Shown in pieces: positions 6,741 to 14,354 of a DNA stretch of 64,000 nucleotides; within the stretch, counting starts at the first letter, position 1, and each line of letters opens with the position of its first letter. A program made the position numbers and the translations under genes. The stretch comes from Halobacteriovorax sp. (lineage in GTDB: Bacteria; Bdellovibrionota; Bacteriovoracia; Bacteriovoracales; Bacteriovoracaceae). Below the pieces are notes generated by a model. That model saw only the letters and a list, made by a program, of their open reading frames with translations, did no database searches and was not told where the DNA came from. The stretch covers positions 1 to 64,000 of the forward strand of contig JAIFLR010000049.1 of the NCBI GenBank assembly GCA_020048985.1. Reading direction: 5' to 3'.

Positions 6741-7697
6741 TTATTTTCTTTTACTAAGCAGATAGGGAATGACACCCAGAACGTTCACTAAGAGTGTGAC
6801 GACAAAATAAATATTGAAGAGCGAAGCTCCGTTTTCAATTCCTGAGTACTCAAAAAGTTTTTGGAAGATGGCATGCCCGACTCCAAGTCCGGATGGAGCA
6901 ATAGGCAGGGCGAGTGTCATGAGACCCAGAGGAATAAATGCGAGGGCCTGAACAAAGTCCATGTGCCCACCCACAAACGGATAGACCAGTGACCAAAAAA
7001 TAACAACACCGATCAGTTGAATCAGGATAGATAATGCCACGGCCTTAAGCATTCGTGACCTAATCATCACAAGATCGTCCCAAAGAGAAATGACTCTCGT
7101 AAATAAACCTGAAAGAAATTTTGACTGCAGAAAAATCAGAACTGACCTGATGTGTTTATGCCAGTACATAAAAATTCCGACTGAAGCGATTATCATCATG
7201 ACTAAAAAATAATTGAATCGTAAGAGAGGCTCCATGGCGGGTGCATTGTTTAAAATGTGACCTGAAAAACACAGGGAATTGATTCCTACCAGAAGAATCA
7301 GACCTGAGAGGCCCATAACTCGGTCGATGAGTATCGAAGCAAAAAGGAATTGCTTCGAGAAGGCCTGATCAAATTTTTGCACGTAAAGTATCTTAACCAG
7401 ATCACCACTCACGCTGCCGGGAAGAACACTGCTGAAGAACTGTCCAATCCAGGAAATTTTAACCATTCCACTGATTGGGATTTCAGCCGTGCTGCGTGCG
7501 CCTAAAATACTTCTCCAACGAAATGAAATAAGCAAAAAGTTGAGTACACTGAGGAAAATCGCCAAAAAGACAGCCAGAGGGTGGTCTTTTAAACTCGCTA
7601 ACAGCTTGAAATCCAGTTTCCCGGATGACAATAACCACCCAACGAGGGCGGCGGCGATAGAGAATTTAAGAAGATTAATGAAAATTGTTTTCAGCAT
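6741..7697 (-). CDS. Flippase-like integral membrane protein (LPG synthase TM / UPF0104 family)
   Basis: This 318-residue polytopic membrane protein has about eight hydrophobic helices. It carries the hallmarks of the lysylphosphatidylglycerol-synthase transmembrane family: an FRWRSILGA motif after the second helix, GQFFSSVLPGSVSGDLVK in the middle and PSGLGVGHAIFQKLF near the end. Members without the C-terminal aminoacyl-transferase domain are thought to move lipids or glycolipids across the inner membrane. The substrate is not predictable here. The start at 7697 has no Shine-Dalgarno sequence. TTTACC-17-TAAGAT lies upstream on the same strand with only 9 nt between the -10 box and ATG. Confidence 0.85.
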   Translation of the reverse strand: MLKTIFINLLKFSIAAALVGWLLSSGKLDFKLLASLKDHPLAVFLAIFLSVLNFLLISFRWRSILGARSTAEIPISGMVKISWIGQFFSSVLPGSVSGDLVKILYVQKFDQAFSKQFLFASILIDRVMGLSGLILLVGINSLCFSGHILNNAPAMEPLLRFNYFLVMMIIASVGIFMYWHKHIRSVLIFLQSKFLSGLFTRVISLWDDLVMIRSRMLKAVALSILIQLIGVVIFWSLVYPFVGGHMDFVQALAFIPLGLMTLALPIAPSGLGVGHAIFQKLFEYSGIENGASLFNIYFVVTLLVNVLGVIPYLLSKRK

Positions 7698-8555: not shown

Positions 8556-8810
8556 CTACATGTAGGGATTAGTTCCACTTTGGTGGTCCGTTACATCTAC
8601 GACATCAACGATGTCCGGGAAGTTTTTCTTTATTACTTGCTCCATACCGCCTTTTAATGTGGCCTTGGAACTAGAACATCCCTGGCATCCGCCAAAGAAT
8701 TTAATAAAAAGAATATTATTATCAATATCAACCACCTCGACGTTGCCTCCGTGTTGGGCAAGTGCTGGTCGAATTTGTTGATCAAAAAGTTTTTCAATTT
8801 GTGCAATCAT
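8556..8810 (-). CDS. NifU C-terminal-domain iron-sulfur protein
   Basis: This 84-residue stand-alone NifU_C domain carries C42-x-x-C45 in FGGCQGCSSS, the ligand pair that holds a transient 4Fe-4S cluster between two monomers. Such proteins (Nfu type) deliver clusters to apo-targets such as lipoyl synthase or aconitase. It has no N-terminal A-type domain, unlike NfuA. It lies 12 nt downstream of an exported-protein gene on the same strand, and both are probably co-transcribed. Confidence 0.92.
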   Translation of the reverse strand: MIAQIEKLFDQQIRPALAQHGGNVEVVDIDNNILFIKFFGGCQGCSSSKATLKGGMEQVIKKNFPDIVDVVDVTDHQSGTNPYM

Positions 8811-8822
8811 AGGATTCTTTTA

Positions 8823-9329
8823 TCACATTTTGGACAAATGTTGGCTTTTAAAATCTTGAAGGAGTACCTGCAAGTTTTTTGCTTGGTTACTTCCATAAGT
8901 GAATGGGGGAACCCAAGTCAGACTTTCAACCATCCCATTCTGAGTGATTTTATAAATCAGGCCTTCTTGTGGTTTTCCAGCAAAGAACCAACTGGCGTCG
9001 TCATTTTGATCGGCCAGTGACATCTGCACCAGAGTGAGTTGTTTCATTTCAGGATCTTCAATTCTTAACGGATTATGAAATTTAACCACGGCACTTGCGA
9101 CAACATCATCTCGAAGAGTAATGGTGAGTTGGGATGAATCCGGTAGTATATAAGTGATGGTGTTTCTCTGGCGAGAAACGGGAGAGCCGAAATGAGCTTC
9201 AACTTCACTTACGGTCATTTGCAAACGTAGAGCTTTTAACTCAACTTTCTGGGTCACTGTTTGGTTAGCGTTGATATAGGCAGCGGCGATGATCCCCATG
9301 ACGGCAGCGAAAACAAAAGCTAATTTCAT
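8823..9329 (-). CDS. Exported or membrane-anchored protein, BamE-like repeat suspected
   Basis: The 168-residue protein begins with a hydrophobic segment (residues 2-18) that can be an uncleaved anchor or signal peptide. A region around residues 35-75 (MTVSEVEAHFGSPVSRQ, then alternating hydrophobic strands) resembles the SmpA/OmlA/BamE-type fold, but similarity is weak by eye. The rest is not recognised. A GAGG site lies before ATG 9329. It is transcribed with the NifU-domain gene. Confidence 0.65.
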   Translation of the reverse strand: MKLAFVFAAVMGIIAAAYINANQTVTQKVELKALRLQMTVSEVEAHFGSPVSRQRNTITYILPDSSQLTITLRDDVVASAVVKFHNPLRIEDPEMKQLTLVQMSLADQNDDASWFFAGKPQEGLIYKITQNGMVESLTWVPPFTYGSNQAKNLQVLLQDFKSQHLSKM

Positions 9330-9481: not shown

Positions 9482-9487
9482 TATAAT
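9482..9487 (+). promoter_or_regulatory. Consensus -10 box of the helicase gene
   Basis: TATAAT lies 14 nt before the only usable ATG (9502), since the Walker A motif starts nine codons later. No clear -35 element is seen at 16-18 nt. The transcript would carry a leader of about 7 nt. Confidence 0.45.
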
Positions 9488-9501: not shown

Positions 9502-10416
9502 ATGTGTGACCTACTTATTTTGACGGCTCCTCCCGCATCAGGGAAAACTTACCTGATTTCAAAACTTATTCAGGATTTAAATCAATCATTTTTGGTTATA
9601 TCACCCCTGCGCGCGCTGGCCAATGAGTGCCTCTCCAAATGGGGGTCCAGTTGTTTGGTGATGACTCCGGAGGAGTGGTTGAAAAAAAGAAAAGTCGCGC
9701 AGATTCTCATTCTTGATGAGTTTCATCTCAATTTTTATTGGGGAGATACTTTTAGACCACAGATGTGGGAAGCCTTCTATGAAATGGTTCAGGGAGCTGA
9801 ACTAGTGATTTTACTCACAGCGACCCTCACGCAAGAAATGACCAATGAAATTAAGCAGTATAACTGCCAATTTGATCAAATCATCTGGGCAGATTACGGC
9901 AACCAGCAGCTCAGAAATAAACCCCTCCGTTATTACAAGGCTTCTTCAGTAAGATGGATTGAGAATTATCTTTTAAATCTTACTCATGCAACCAGCGGCA
10001 ATCTTATTTTCTGCGCTTATCGCTCGGAAGTAGTTAAATGGGAAAAGTTGCTGAAGGCGAGAGGTTTCACAGTCTGGACCTGCGTAGGTGGGGAAGCGAG
10101 TTTGTTTTCCATGAAGGTGCAGAGTGAGAAACCTCCTCAGTTTATTGTGGCCACCACAGTTCTCTCTCATGGAGTCAACCTTCCAAATATTTCCAGGATA
10201 TTTTTTCTCTATCAAGTCAAGAATTTGGATTTTTGGATTCAGATGGTGGCCAGGGGAGGACGCAGGGGGGAGACATTTGAAGTGTTTGCTCTGGAGAATC
10301 CAGTTGGAATTAAATGGAACAAATTATTAAATTCCTTGGCGATCGCGAGATTAAGTTTAAAGATGAAAGGGCAACACTTACTCAAGCAGATAGAAGAATG
10401 GTTTTTGAAGGCGTAG
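9502..10416 (+). CDS. Compact SF2 DExH helicase-like ATPase
   Basis: This 304-residue protein holds both RecA-like lobes of a superfamily 2 helicase in minimal form. Motif I is APPASGKT (9-16), motif II DEFH (72-75), motif III TAT (106-108), a motif IV-like stretch NLIFCAY (167-173), motif V TTVLSHGVNLP (218-228) and motif VI QMVARGGRRG (247-256). There is no Q motif, accessory domain or long C-terminal extension, and it is much shorter than usual DNA or RNA helicases. It overlaps recO by 19 nt, which suggests translational coupling and a DNA-repair role (inference). The leader is very short and lacks a Shine-Dalgarno sequence. Confidence 0.75.
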   Translation: MCDLLILTAPPASGKTYLISKLIQDLNQSFLVISPLRALANECLSKWGSSCLVMTPEEWLKKRKVAQILILDEFHLNFYWGDTFRPQMWEAFYEMVQGAELVILLTATLTQEMTNEIKQYNCQFDQIIWADYGNQQLRNKPLRYYKASSVRWIENYLLNLTHATSGNLIFCAYRSEVVKWEKLLKARGFTVWTCVGGEASLFSMKVQSEKPPQFIVATTVLSHGVNLPNISRIFFLYQVKNLDFWIQMVARGGRRGETFEVFALENPVGIKWNKLLNSLAIARLSLKMKGQHLLKQIEEWFLKA

Positions 10417-11180
10417 TTATTCATAAGGTTCCCTACAAAGAGCGGGATCTGATCGTTAAACTCCTCATGCGAAATGGGATGATGGGTAGTTTCTATATTT
10501 ATGGTGGTCAGGGCGGTGGTAAACACCATAAGCCAACTATTTTTGAAATCGGCTCAATGGTAAAAATTCAAATCAGAGAGCAAAGGGCCGGCAAGATCGA
10601 AGGCAATGAGTTAATGATGGCGAGTGAAAGCCAAAGACTCTGGGAACCAGAACTCATTCGCCACAATATCCAAGCTTTCTACCTCGTGTGTTTATATCTC
10701 GAAATTTTACAAAAGTTTTCCATGAATTTTCAGGTCAACACTAGTGACTATGACAATATGGAGCATGAAGGAATTTTTTCGGTTATTAGTAATGCTCTTT
10801 TTCATATGAATGATTCTTTGAAAAAAGAAGAATTCGTCGCTCACCAACATTTAACTTTATATATGGTGAAGCTCTTATTTCACTTGGGGATTATGCCGGA
10901 GACTGATAACTGCTCTTATTGTGGAACAGGTCTAATGGAATCTCTGGGGGTGACTTTCCAGCCAGAGAACGGGCAGTTCTCTTGCACTCAATGCGTAAAC
11001 GCTGAAAATGAAAAAGGCTTTTTACTACGGATCAAAAAGAGTTACCAAACAAAGTATCAGGATTATCTGGAGCTCACTGGAACTAATTTCCAGGAAGCTG
11101 ATAAACTTATTCAGTTCTTCTGCCATCATTTCCAGCTCAGGCCAGTGGAGCTTAAGTCTTATGGATTACTTTTAAGGTGA
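10398..11180 (+). CDS. recO: DNA repair protein RecO
   Basis: The 260-residue protein has the RecO layout. An N-terminal OB fold (MVFEGVVIHKVPYKERDLIVKLL, residues 1-80) is followed by a helical domain and a C4 zinc module (CSYCGTG about residue 173, CTQC about 200). RecO anneals DNA and loads RecA with RecR in the RecFOR pathway. The start at 10398 matches the family and overlaps the helicase end. An upstream in-frame ATG (10314) would add 28 residues of unrelated sequence. The 3' end overlaps the convergent phosphatase gene by 22 nt. Confidence 0.88.
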   Translation: MVFEGVVIHKVPYKERDLIVKLLMRNGMMGSFYIYGGQGGGKHHKPTIFEIGSMVKIQIREQRAGKIEGNELMMASESQRLWEPELIRHNIQAFYLVCLYLEILQKFSMNFQVNTSDYDNMEHEGIFSVISNALFHMNDSLKKEEFVAHQHLTLYMVKLLFHLGIMPETDNCSYCGTGLMESLGVTFQPENGQFSCTQCVNAENEKGFLLRIKKSYQTKYQDYLELTGTNFQEADKLIQFFCHHFQLRPVELKSYGLLLR

Positions 11181-11711: not shown

Positions 11712-13424
11712 ATGATTCACGTTCTCAAGTTAATGTTCCCATATCTTCGTCCTTTTTGGAAGGAGGCGCTTCTCGCGACTCTTTTGGCCTTCCCTTTAGC
11801 TGCCATTAAGGCCTATGAAGCCTTCCTCGTGAAGGATATTTTTGACAAGGGGTTTGCGGCTGGCTCCTCTTCTCAGGATGCTCTTGGCCTCGCTCTCTTG
11901 TTGGTGGGTCTAGGTATTTTGAACTTCCCTTTAAGGTATTATCACTATTTTGGTCTCAGACAGGTGGTGGATAAATCCACACGACTGATCAGGTCTAAGA
12001 TTTATGATAAGTTTCAGCTTCTACCGGCAAAATACTATTCCCAGCAAAAGCAAGGGACACTCATTTCAACCATTATGAGTGACACCATGGTTTTTTCAGA
12101 AGCCTTTAAGAACTCTCTGGAAGTCATCCGTGAGCCGATTACTGCGCTTTCCCTATTAGGAGTCGCATTTTACCATGACTGGCAACTCACTTTGATTATC
12201 TTTGCCACCGCTCCACTTTTCATGATCACTCTTCATTTTTCCGGTAAAAGAATCCGCAAATATATTGGTCGGGCCCAACAAGAAAATGCTGAAATGACAC
12301 ACATTGTGAGTGAAGCCTTGGGTGGACAAAAAATTATCAAAGCTTTTGGTTTAAGAGAGTATATCGTTGAGAGATTTGAAAAAGCCCAGTCCCGGTTTCT
12401 CGCCAATCGATCAAAAAGTAACTCTGCAGAAGAGATTTCTCATCCGCTTGTTGAGCTGATTGGTTCTTTTGCTTTTGCTGGAGTGATCATCTTTGCTCAT
12501 CATCGCATCACCTCTGGTCAACTAACTACAGGTGGGTTCATCTCTTTTGTTGCTGCTCTCGCGATGTTTATGGACCCTGTGCGAAGATTTAGTAAGGCCA
12601 ATGCCAAACTTAATCAGGCCCAAGCGGCTGCGACCCGTATTTTTGGACTTCTCAGTGTGGAAGAAGAACCACAGGCCAGTTTGAAAGAACTGCCTGGTTT
12701 TCATAAGACGATAGAATTTAAAAATGTCTCTTTTTCTTACGGCGAAGGCACAGTTCTCAATGGTTTTAATCTTTTGATCCATAAAGGCGAAAAAATCGGT
12801 CTGGTTGGTCTATCGGGATCTGGTAAGTCGACACTGGTCAGTCTACTCCTTAGACTTTATCCGGTTGTACAGGGAGAAATTCTGATCGACGGGATTAATA
12901 TCAATGAATACAGCCTTTCATCTGTGCGGAAAGTTTTCGGTCTGGTTAGTCAGGATATATTCCTGTTTAACGATACAATCCGGGAAAATCTCACCACTGG
13001 TGATAAACATACTGATGAGGAAATTCTCCACGCTCTGGAAATTTCCTATGCCTGGGAATTTGTTAAAGACTTACCAGGTCAGCTTGAAACACAAATTGGG
13101 GACCGAGGTGTAAGACTCTCGGGAGGCCAAAGTCAGCGTCTCACAATTGCCCGTGCCTTTTTGAAGAACCGTGACGTGCTTCTCTTCGATGAAGCGACTT
13201 CTGCTCTGGATAACGAATCGGAAAAAATTGTACAGCAAGCCTTGGAGCGCGTGGCCGGTCATAAAACAGTGGTGGCCGTGGCCCATAGACTTTCAACTTT
13301 GAAAGATTTTAATCGCATTGTGGTGATGAAGGACGGCGTGAAAATCGAAGAGGGAAGTCATCCTGAATTGATTGCTAAAAACGGCGAGTATAAAAAGCTT
13401 TTTGAATTATCTCAGCGAGATTAA
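11712..13424 (+). CDS. msbA: Lipid A/phospholipid export ABC transporter MsbA-like
   Basis: This 570-residue half-transporter has an ABC type-1 exporter membrane domain (six helices, residues about 15-310) fused to an ATPase domain. Walker A is GLSGSGKST (about 367-375), the Q-loop lies in VSQDIFLFND, the signature is LSGGQSQR, Walker B is VLLFDEATSALD and the switch histidine lies in VAHRLST. Homodimers of this type flip lipid A core or related lipids across the inner membrane. Other exporters of the family (peptide, drug) are possible. Its stop codon shares TTAA with the stop of the convergent gene. Confidence 0.85.
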   Translation: MIHVLKLMFPYLRPFWKEALLATLLAFPLAAIKAYEAFLVKDIFDKGFAAGSSSQDALGLALLLVGLGILNFPLRYYHYFGLRQVVDKSTRLIRSKIYDKFQLLPAKYYSQQKQGTLISTIMSDTMVFSEAFKNSLEVIREPITALSLLGVAFYHDWQLTLIIFATAPLFMITLHFSGKRIRKYIGRAQQENAEMTHIVSEALGGQKIIKAFGLREYIVERFEKAQSRFLANRSKSNSAEEISHPLVELIGSFAFAGVIIFAHHRITSGQLTTGGFISFVAALAMFMDPVRRFSKANAKLNQAQAAATRIFGLLSVEEEPQASLKELPGFHKTIEFKNVSFSYGEGTVLNGFNLLIHKGEKIGLVGLSGSGKSTLVSLLLRLYPVVQGEILIDGININEYSLSSVRKVFGLVSQDIFLFNDTIRENLTTGDKHTDEEILHALEISYAWEFVKDLPGQLETQIGDRGVRLSGGQSQRLTIARAFLKNRDVLLFDEATSALDNESEKIVQQALERVAGHKTVVAVAHRLSTLKDFNRIVVMKDGVKIEEGSHPELIAKNGEYKKLFELSQRD

Positions 13425-14263
13425 TTATTTATTGGCCAGATTTCTGAAACAGAATTGAAGTGGGCCATATCACTATACCCCCGACTGTAATGAACAAAAT
13501 TTCCATTTTTATGTACGTCATAGTTTGTTCCTTGAATGGTACTTTTTCCCGATTCAAATTTAACCCCAACTTCACTTCTTAATTGATTCGCGAATTTTTC
13601 TGGATCCATGCCTTTGACTGTGGCGAGGGTGAGTTTGCCCTGACTTTTTTGATACCAGGACTTAATTGCGTCCTTGGTTGTGACGCTATAAATTCCATCA
13701 TAAATACTTACCTTAGCAGTTTTGATTTCTGCATTTAACGCTGCGGCGACATACTTTCCCCCTCCCGAATGGCCTGAAAGGTGAAGGGGAGAATCTTTAA
13801 GGTGGTTCCCAAGAGCGCTTTGCGCATCAGCAAGAAACTGGGTGTAGGAATTCTTGTCTTTAAAAAATTCCTTGTAGGTCGCGTTGGCGCCAGTGCTTTG
13901 AGGAATAATTGTGATTTCAGAATTTTCACATAAGCTTTTTTGGATACCAAAAGCTTTGACCATACTTTGCAGGCTTCCCTCGTAGGGCTTGGTTTGAGCA
14001 AGACCTAGGATGTGGCCATGAAAATGAAGTCTTAGGCTGTCGATGGTTTGGGGAATAGTGATGAGAACGGGTTTTGGGTAACTTCCCAATTTGCCCGTAC
14101 ACTCGTTGTAGGCGCAGTCGGCTAAAATTTGCTTGGTGCAACTAAATCCATGAAGCTTAACAGATGTAAGTACTTCCTCTGGGGAAACCTCTTCACAAAC
14201 AGGGTCTGTTGCAAAGCTGAGTGATGTACTCAGGATAAAGAAAATTAAGAATAATTGCGTCAT
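13421..14263 (-). CDS. Secreted alpha/beta-hydrolase-like protein
   Basis: The protein of about 280 residues begins with a signal peptide (MTQLFLIFFILSTSLSFA). The mature part contains GHSGGGKY, a typical nucleophile elbow G-x-S-x-G. Upstream is LRLHFHGHILG, which fits an oxyanion-hole strand, and a late histidine (DMAHF) could complete the triad. Several cysteines near the N terminus suggest disulfides. The substrate is unknown; esterase, lipase or peptidase would all fit. The ATG at 14263 follows AGAGGA closely, and an in-frame ATG at 14275 would add four residues. Confidence 0.7.
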   Translation of the reverse strand: MTQLFLIFFILSTSLSFATDPVCEEVSPEEVLTSVKLHGFSCTKQILADCAYNECTGKLGSYPKPVLITIPQTIDSLRLHFHGHILGLAQTKPYEGSLQSMVKAFGIQKSLCENSEITIIPQSTGANATYKEFFKDKNSYTQFLADAQSALGNHLKDSPLHLSGHSGGGKYVAAALNAEIKTAKVSIYDGIYSVTTKDAIKSWYQKSQGKLTLATVKGMDPEKFANQLRSEVGVKFESGKSTIQGTNYDVHKNGNFVHYSRGYSDMAHFNSVSEIWPINN

Positions 14264-14354
14264 GTTTCCTCTCATAAAGCTCTTCGGTAAGACGGGCTTT
14301 TTTCTTAGGTTTATGATAAAACTTTGAGGTCAAAATCATCATCAGGAGAGAAAT

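Follow-up and report, generated by a model that had tools for sequence, protein, structure and literature searches.

A minimal RecQ-like helicase kept upstream of recO in the Bacteriovoracaceae

The window—the whole 64,000-nucleotide stretch of Halobacteriovorax sp. DNA analyzed here—carries two interlocking genes on its forward strand. The first (9502..10416, ATG start) encodes a 304-residue protein that the ORF, Pfam and NCBIfam matches, an AlphaFold2 model and fold matching mark as a minimal SF2 helicase, hereafter the mini-helicase. The second (10398..11180) is recO, assigned by NCBIfam, Pfam and alignment, with 260 residues counted from its conserved start. The 3′ end of the helicase gene and the 5′ end of recO share 19 nt (10398..10416), as the original prediction had described. 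The recO start at 10398 was chosen because it aligns with relatives, a mechanical ORF lister beginning the gene at 10314, and the last helicase residues (EEWFLKA) are fixed by the recO start, whose nucleotides they use in a different frame. Judging from the overlap, the mini-helicase gene would be the first of a two-gene operon, which appears to comprise only these two genes in the window; two minus-strand genes (8823–9329, and a NifU-domain gene at 8556–8810) lie upstream, and a minus-strand HAD-type gene overlaps the recO end downstream. The window neighbors that bear a Pfam name are of housekeeping type, and an LPG_synthase_TM-family gene lies at 6741–7697, 1.8 kb upstream of the helicase. 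A TATAAT sequence at 9482–9487, whose last base lies 15 nt upstream of the helicase ATG, was considered as a promoter or leaderless start and rejected, being unconserved by eye in 14 congeners. Separately, we observed that the minus-strand gene at 8823–9329, divergent from the helicase, encodes a 168-residue protein with no Pfam match at E 0.1; it was matched in 23 of 24 loci (L001–L024), the exception being L021, where 84 nt of sequence precede the helicase match; L025, from another genus, has it too (34%). A further minus-strand gene in the window (13421–14275) encodes a 284-residue protein with a signal-peptide-like start and, again, no Pfam match at E 0.1.

The RecO protein of the window scored above the cut-off of TIGR00613 (54.1 bits against 48.7) and of RecO_C (27.2 against 22.1) and slightly below that of RecO_N (25.9 against 27). 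Within residues 172–199 (10911..10994), an 11-sequence alignment shows the invariant cysteines C172, C175, C196 and C199, which we take to be a likely zinc site.

Both Pfam matches of the helicase lie above the gathering score (DEAD, 39.8 bits, cut-off 26; Helicase_C, 32.0 bits, cut-off 23.5), and motifs I, Ia, Ib, II, III, IV, V and VI extend across two RecA-like domains, as expected of SF2. Under the motif names that we have assigned, the protein contains Walker A (APPASGKT, residues 9–16, 9526..9549; seen in the sequence and the family alignment), Ia (SPLRAL), Ib (TPE), II (DEFH, residues 72–75), III (TAT), V (TTVLSHGVNLP) and VI (QMVARGGRRG), the last two spanning residues 218–256 (10153..10269). 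Motif II leads into a RecQ-type loop, the two together reading DEFHLNFYWGDTFRP (residues 72–86; 9715..9759), and the same aromatic-rich WGxxFRP loop appears in full RecQ proteins of the family as DEAHCVSQWGHEFR or DEAHCISQWGHDFRPEY. Across 68 non-redundant family sequences, G14, K15, D72 and E73 are invariant (65 of 65 aligned rows), T16 is kept in 64 of 65 rows and R251 and R254 in 66 of 66, the remaining two or three rows being gapped at those columns; in the loop, none of the aligned rows departs from W80, F84 and R85 (65 of 65) or from G81 (61 of 61). Just eight residues precede Walker A in the window protein, leaving no room for RecQ motif 0, and neither motif 0 nor a Q motif is present before Walker A; counted from the first Met, this leader measures 7–33 residues in 60 of the 68 open frames, 67 in one and 0 in seven. 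Downstream of motif VI, 32–91 residues follow in 66 of 68 rows, with 0 and 2 in the remaining two. Pfam detected no RecQ zinc-binding, winged-helix (RQC) or HRDC domain in the window helicase; in their place, the AlphaFold2 model has a single C-terminal helix after the last strand (residues 274–303; 10321..10410). The proposal of a minimal SF2 core devoid of accessory domains is therefore borne out.

The generic label of "SF2 mini-helicase" needs refinement: the SF2 core stands but, on sequence grounds, the protein is a member of the RecQ lineage without being RecQ proper. The lineage name rests on the RecQ-type loop and the tree position, and the separation from RecQ on scores far below the family cut-offs—the best NCBIfam match is RecQ, yet at 43.2 bits for TIGR01389 (cut-off 640.2) and 35.3 bits for TIGR00614 (cut-off 219.8). 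Run against the sequences of solved structures, the helicase profile ranked Slh1 first, with ASCC3, the Bloom helicase and the U5 200-kDa helicase also among its best matches; in our view, motifs V (LSHGVNLP) and VI resemble those of Ski2-like helicases. The AlphaFold2 model, computed from a 17-row alignment, had a mean pLDDT of 87 and matched the folds of BLM (Z 20.0, 270 residues aligned, rmsd 3.3) and of the bacterial RecQ core 6crm (Z 19.9, 275 aligned, rmsd 3.3), with DbpA and exon-junction DEAD-box structures tying with both at Z of about 20. A tree of 24 mini-helicases, 20 RecQ-like relatives from other families, 12 RecQ and 5 DEAD-box proteins recovered these four groups with supports of 100, 92, 97 and 100, respectively, and set the first three together against the DEAD-box proteins with a support of 100. 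The mini-helicase branch is long (2.56 changes per column), and the tree does not decide which of the three groups are sisters. When one Lhr sequence was added, an unconstrained quick search gave a warning that long branches were meeting; the constrained tree with the three groups together had the higher likelihood, and their union was not rejected (p-AU 0.873). A generic DEAD-box RNA helicase was discounted on account of the missing Q motif, the RecQ-type loop and the tree position, even though the fold scores are tied. Full-length RecQ scored above its cut-off in 10 of 11 family genomes tested, G034 being the one without such a match, and RecR and RecF did so in 11 of 11; in the source genome of the window, a RecQ above its cut-off is found on contig C113, interrupted by the contig end. 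With a separate full RecQ, RecF and RecR present, the mini-helicase is best seen as an extra paralogue tied to recO and not as a RecQ replacement. From its motifs, it would be expected to be an ATPase and, by analogy, to unwind DNA in the 3′–5′ direction at the expense of ATP.

To our knowledge, RecFOR has no built-in motor, and we know of no settled account of how RecO makes way for RecA on DNA that is structured or covered by SSB. The distribution of the gene pair was surveyed with a profile of 17 helicases and another of 11 RecO proteins, both run over the same 129 Bacteriovoracaceae genomes. The helicase profile matched at E 1e-12 or better in 111 of the 129 genomes. Six of these (G026, G086, G091, G106, G130 and G137; best E about 4e-13 to 8e-21) were dropped: in the four with a listed match place, scores of 59–74 bits fell in frames of 595–649 residues, as for full RecQ, and the places in G026 and G086 were not among the matches listed. 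The mini-helicase was thus counted in 105 of 129 family genomes (91 bits or more) and RecO in 123. Measured between profile-match ends, recO lies less than 200 nt downstream of the helicase on the same strand in 88 of the 105 genomes and 562–1520 nt downstream in a further 11; 99 of the 105 genomes thus have it no more than 1.6 kb away. By genus, the helicase occurs in 38 of 48 and the adjacent pair in 33 of 48 (33 of the 38 carriers). Conservation beyond close relatives, on which the original prediction hinged, was therefore confirmed. Six metagenome-assembly relatives assigned to Bacteriovoracaceae or Bacteriovorax carry helicases 45–83% identical to that of the window, and in other genera orthologues with identities as low as 31–37% also precede recO; that such distant orthologues keep this place argues against a chance pairing. 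In the six family genomes where RecO went unmatched, the mini-helicase is missing as well, a pattern that an assembly gap would mimic. A search of best-matching titles, covering few subscription journals and preprints, retrieved no description of the helicase–recO pair and no paper in which the whole words "Bacteriovorax" and "RecO" both occur.

In six of the 105 genomes, the helicase has no recO downstream of it on its own contig and strand. The order is reversed in G078, with about 2.8 kb in between, and the two genes are on different contigs of fragmented assemblies in G068, G109, G115, G125 and G135; in the last four of these, other genes flank both helicase and recO. As a side observation, the recO-distant mini-helicase of G109 (L112) misses the GK[ST] pattern, and column counts suggest that its Walker A threonine is replaced by G—possibly another decaying copy.

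Eighteen of the 123 recO-bearing genomes have no recognizable mini-helicase, indicating that RecO does not need the motor. In 17 of these 18, a same-strand ORF of 188–319 residues occupies the helicase place upstream of recO; only G114 had no such ORF. Sixteen of these 17 degenerate ORFs end between 19 nt before the recO start and about 230 nt inside recO, with approximate recO starts; that of L173, placed separately, ends no more than 20 nt ahead of the recO start or inside the gene. Intact and degenerate ORFs resemble each other at the C terminus (EWFLKA and similar endings), but this likeness was rejected as evidence of homology since it reflects the recO coding sequence in a different reading frame, and the overlapping part was removed before all homology tests except the first profile comparison. 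In the latter, a profile of 12 mixed ORFs (overlap kept) placed 18 of 30 intact sequences above inclusion, the best at 4.5e-8, a match that covers the part outside the overlap and an E-value scaled to 30 sequences only. The motif search relied on a looser Walker A pattern, which catches 66 of 68 intact proteins (the strict pattern catches 49 of 68), together with column counts. The motif patterns seen in degenerate ORFs were limited to GK[ST] in L145 (residue 139) and L147, where the TPTIGKT stretch may be a Walker A remnant, and Q...R.GR in L171; a pattern search found DE.H in none of the degenerate ORFs.

A structural case comes from genus g40, whose seven genomes carry ORFs 24–40% identical to the first of them after overlap removal. 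An AlphaFold2 model built from these seven sequences alone has block pLDDT values of 74–92 for the first 130 residues and low values beyond, and within those 130 residues the order of strands and helices is the same as in domain 1 of the intact model. The top structure matches were Sub2, RECQ1 and RECQL5 (Z 8.4, 8.2 and 8.2; 120–124 residues aligned, rmsd 2.8–2.9), on a scale where the tool warns that Z below 8 can mean a common arrangement. An SF2 helicase is named in 42 of the 50 matches listed, the other eight being Schlafen proteins, a tRNA acetyltransferase and three unnamed chains. Other comparisons gave weaker signals or none: hhalign aligned the g40 and intact-helicase profiles collinearly over 120 columns, Ia to Ia and II to II, at P 0.016 and a probability of 2.8%; the g40 profile had no match among the sequences of solved structures, Foldseek with the g40 model returned none at E 0.001 or better, and Pfam gave none for six of the seven ORFs and one insignificant match for the seventh. 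Taken together, fold and position point to a helicase ancestry, and the g40 ORF is modeled as a helicase domain 1 without the catalytic motifs.

For individual ORFs, HMM scores were compared with those of 500 shuffles, where shuffles without a HMMER report counted as lower-scoring. At most three shuffles reached the observed score for L149, L151, L152 and L154 only (0–1 for the first three); nine did so for L158 and at least 32 for each of the other 12, so that most degenerate ORFs do not beat their shuffles. Pairwise-mean z values, from 40 shuffles each, were 4.9, 7.2, 9.0 and 3.5 for L149, L151, L152 and L154, respectively, and −0.3 to 3.0 for the rest. In hhalign, 300 open frames of 180–330 residues from the same loci, a mixture of genes and spurious frames, served as controls; the top four, which we take to be two MeaB-type GTPases, an ABC ATPase and a helicase fragment, scored 39–50 and the next 25.5. 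L149 (33.5), L152 (31.6) and L151 (27.1) exceeded this fifth control and stayed below the top four, and neither L154 (24.9) nor any remaining degenerate ORF exceeded it; the clade profiles scored 22.9 for g40 and 35.0 for g47. On sequence and position together, L149 (G130, genus g60) and L151 and L152 (G112 and G113, genus g47) were counted as helicase relatives, L154 is borderline, and L146, L147, L148, L155, L173 and L174 are placed by position only. The other g60 members, G129 and G131, carry an intact helicase beside recO.

Selection was gauged in g40 genome pairs. Codon third positions differ more often than second positions in all 21 pairs, and more often than first positions in 19 of them. 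In the non-overlapping part, G086–G087, the only pair of the 21 that is close enough, gave dN 0.28 and dS 1.45 (ratio of about 0.19); G091–G085 gave dN 0.91 and dS 1.43, and the remaining 19 pairs had dS above 2 or saturated. A RecO tree was built from 86 sequences, comprising 64 rows with an intact helicase (some genomes entered twice), 16 of the 17 degenerate loci, five with the helicase elsewhere and one with none. On it, the degenerate state amounts to nine changes, of which strongly supported branches force just two, long branches meeting in this tree. The mini-helicase is a probable pseudoenzyme in a few genera. Delivery of single-stranded DNA to RecFOR by the motor, as put forward in the original prediction, is a hypothesis, and the replacement ORFs, of which some at any rate seem to derive from a helicase and have no catalytic motifs, argue that motor activity is not the sole thing kept.

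One way to account for such decay is that the upstream ORF is maintained mainly to drive recO translation by overlap, the protein being a side product—a possibility that would tolerate loss of the motor and that we hold to be rather unlikely. The spacing of the genes is in its favor. Codon to codon, across 51 non-redundant pairs (leaving out G078 with its reversed order and seven loci where the recO Met was unclear), 34 overlap by 4–146 nt, 11 are separated by 3–18 nt, one by 39 nt and five by inserts of 614–1463 nt, so that 45 of 51 overlap or have gaps of at most 18 nt. The close overlap anticipated from the window alone is hence general across the family and extends beyond the window genus, where 10 of 20 loci overlap by exactly 19 nt, five by 22–61 nt and five have gaps of 3–18 nt. 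The degenerate ORFs, too, end near or inside recO. Coupling, however, does not need catalytic residues, and these are kept in 64–66 of 65–66 aligned rows; the G086–G087 pair shows its low dN relative to dS outside the recO overlap; and the five pairs with long inserts keep the order all the same. Inserted cases that keep the order include G003, G060 and G067. The insert of G067 contains a 414-residue ORF, that of G003 (L012:2443-3384) a gene for a 313-residue, presumably AhpD-like protein with two CSYCxYFH repeats, and that of G060 (L157:1521-2073) two same-strand ORFs of 84 and 105 residues, which to us resemble a toxin–antitoxin pair; seven genomes of genus g32 besides G060 have 562–1520 nt between the helicase and recO matches. 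We also observed a spacing similar to that of G003 in G009 and G012, the G009 helicase being split over two frames.

Another possibility is an independent RecQ-like repair helicase, acting for instance in fork rescue, for which the recO neighborhood is a regulatory convenience and which makes no contact with RecO. The six family genomes where the gene was not found upstream of recO fit this notion, as do relatives outside the family, sampled as 20 loci selected from profile matches in other families of the phylum. These are frames of 347–402 residues scoring 61–110 bits against the family profile, and none of the 20 loci had a RecO match in the 3.1–6.8 kb stretches inspected. The same order in 33 of 38 carrier genera speaks against independence, as does a survey of recombination genes in which systematic clustering was found chiefly among components of stable complexes (PMC1193525); the same source also records clustering of recA with recX, and of recF and recR with replication genes. 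On balance, we consider an independent helicase distinctly improbable. LPG_synthase_TM-like and glutamine-amidotransferase-like genes each adjoin the helicase or lie near it in 19 of 20 outside-family loci. The cluster in L074–L093 combines glycosyltransferase-like, glutamine-amidotransferase-like and LPG_synthase_TM-like genes with the 347–402-residue RecQ-like helicase, the first two names being our own assignments. Along with the LPG_synthase_TM gene upstream of the window helicase, this hints at a shared ancestral neighborhood.

A defense- or toxin-type RecQ-like helicase, kin to DpdF or PsyrT/RqlH and caught in a housekeeping operon, is highly implausible: DpdF (39.5 bits, window protein) and PsyrT (56.4 bits, a distant member) are the best PADLOC matches, but both are weak and partial, the helicase stands beside recO across the family, the named window neighbors are of housekeeping type and a scan of viral contigs yielded one locus only. 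That locus, with 32 matched residues in a 341-residue frame scoring 24.7 bits, likewise led us to discard a phage origin.

The reading that we prefer, with slightly more confidence than doubt, is that a RecQ-lineage paralogue acts in most genera as a RecO-associated motor, either as a subunit of RecO or recruited by it. Such a paralogue would have been reduced to its two RecA-like motor domains and bound into the recO operon of the Bacteriovoracaceae, with direct recruitment by RecO, or a place as its subunit, the most likely arrangement. The winged helix of RecQ is its SSB-docking part and, because it is missing here, targeting would run through RecO and SSB: RecO would reach gaps via SSB, and the mini-helicase would use RecO as its targeting domain. 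Binding of RecO to the SSB tail is reported (PMC10018359). Moving 3′–5′ on one strand, as its RecQ lineage suggests, the motor could open or clear SSB, duplex ends and secondary structure where RecOR loads RecA. In genera without the catalytic motifs, the protein is probably kept beside recO as a structural partner. What the sequences show directly are the conserved motor residues, the gene order with recO, the RecQ-type loop, an extra paralogue beside RecQ, RecF and RecR, and an ORF at the same place in helicase-less genomes; we infer co-transcription, RecO binding, the DNA substrate, polarity, the RecA-loading step and the expression of the degenerate ORFs. This reading is weakened by the six genomes where the helicase was not found upstream of recO, by the 18 recO-bearing genomes without a recognizable helicase and by the outside-family relatives that had no RecO match in the stretches inspected. 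More tentatively, the main role could be that of a dedicated RecO subunit, making RecFOR a motor-assisted RecA loader and leaving a catalytically dead RecO scaffold in several lineages; as part of the same tentative reading, the scaffold form would be a bacterial pseudo-helicase that arose within the recO operon and descends from a paralogue of RecQ.

A family that co-encodes a minimal RecQ-type motor with RecO offers a natural system for studying the coupling of a helicase to a recombination mediator. The intact and catalysis-free versions, apparently both present in genus g60, would separate motor from scaffold function, and the protein would define a very small RecQ-lineage core. The domains that it lacks are usually thought necessary for SSB docking and stable DNA binding.

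Compared with known systems, the mini-helicase shares with RecQ (TIGR01389/TIGR00614) a two-domain SF2 motor in which DE.H is followed by the WGxxFRP loop. RecQ differs in its length of about 600 residues, against 304, and in having motif 0 and the zinc-binding, winged-helix and HRDC domains, all absent from the mini-helicase. The outside-family RecQ-like helicases have a similar RecQ-like core and, in 19 of 20 loci, an LPG_synthase_TM-type neighbor; unlike the short mini-helicase, they extend further before Walker A (with an LRPFQKQAL segment in L074), and two of the five tested had a RecQ zinc-binding match over the cut-off, whereas the window protein has none. The DpdF and PsyrT/RqlH profiles are longer (534–911 positions), with the mini-helicase matching only part of them, and we take their gene partners, e.g., RqlI, to differ from recO. 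For the catalysis-free forms, a precedent for a helicase-like protein of this kind is yeast Utp25, which is named a pseudohelicase (PMC9539457); Utp25, unlike the mini-helicase, is a eukaryotic ribosome-assembly factor without a link to RecO.
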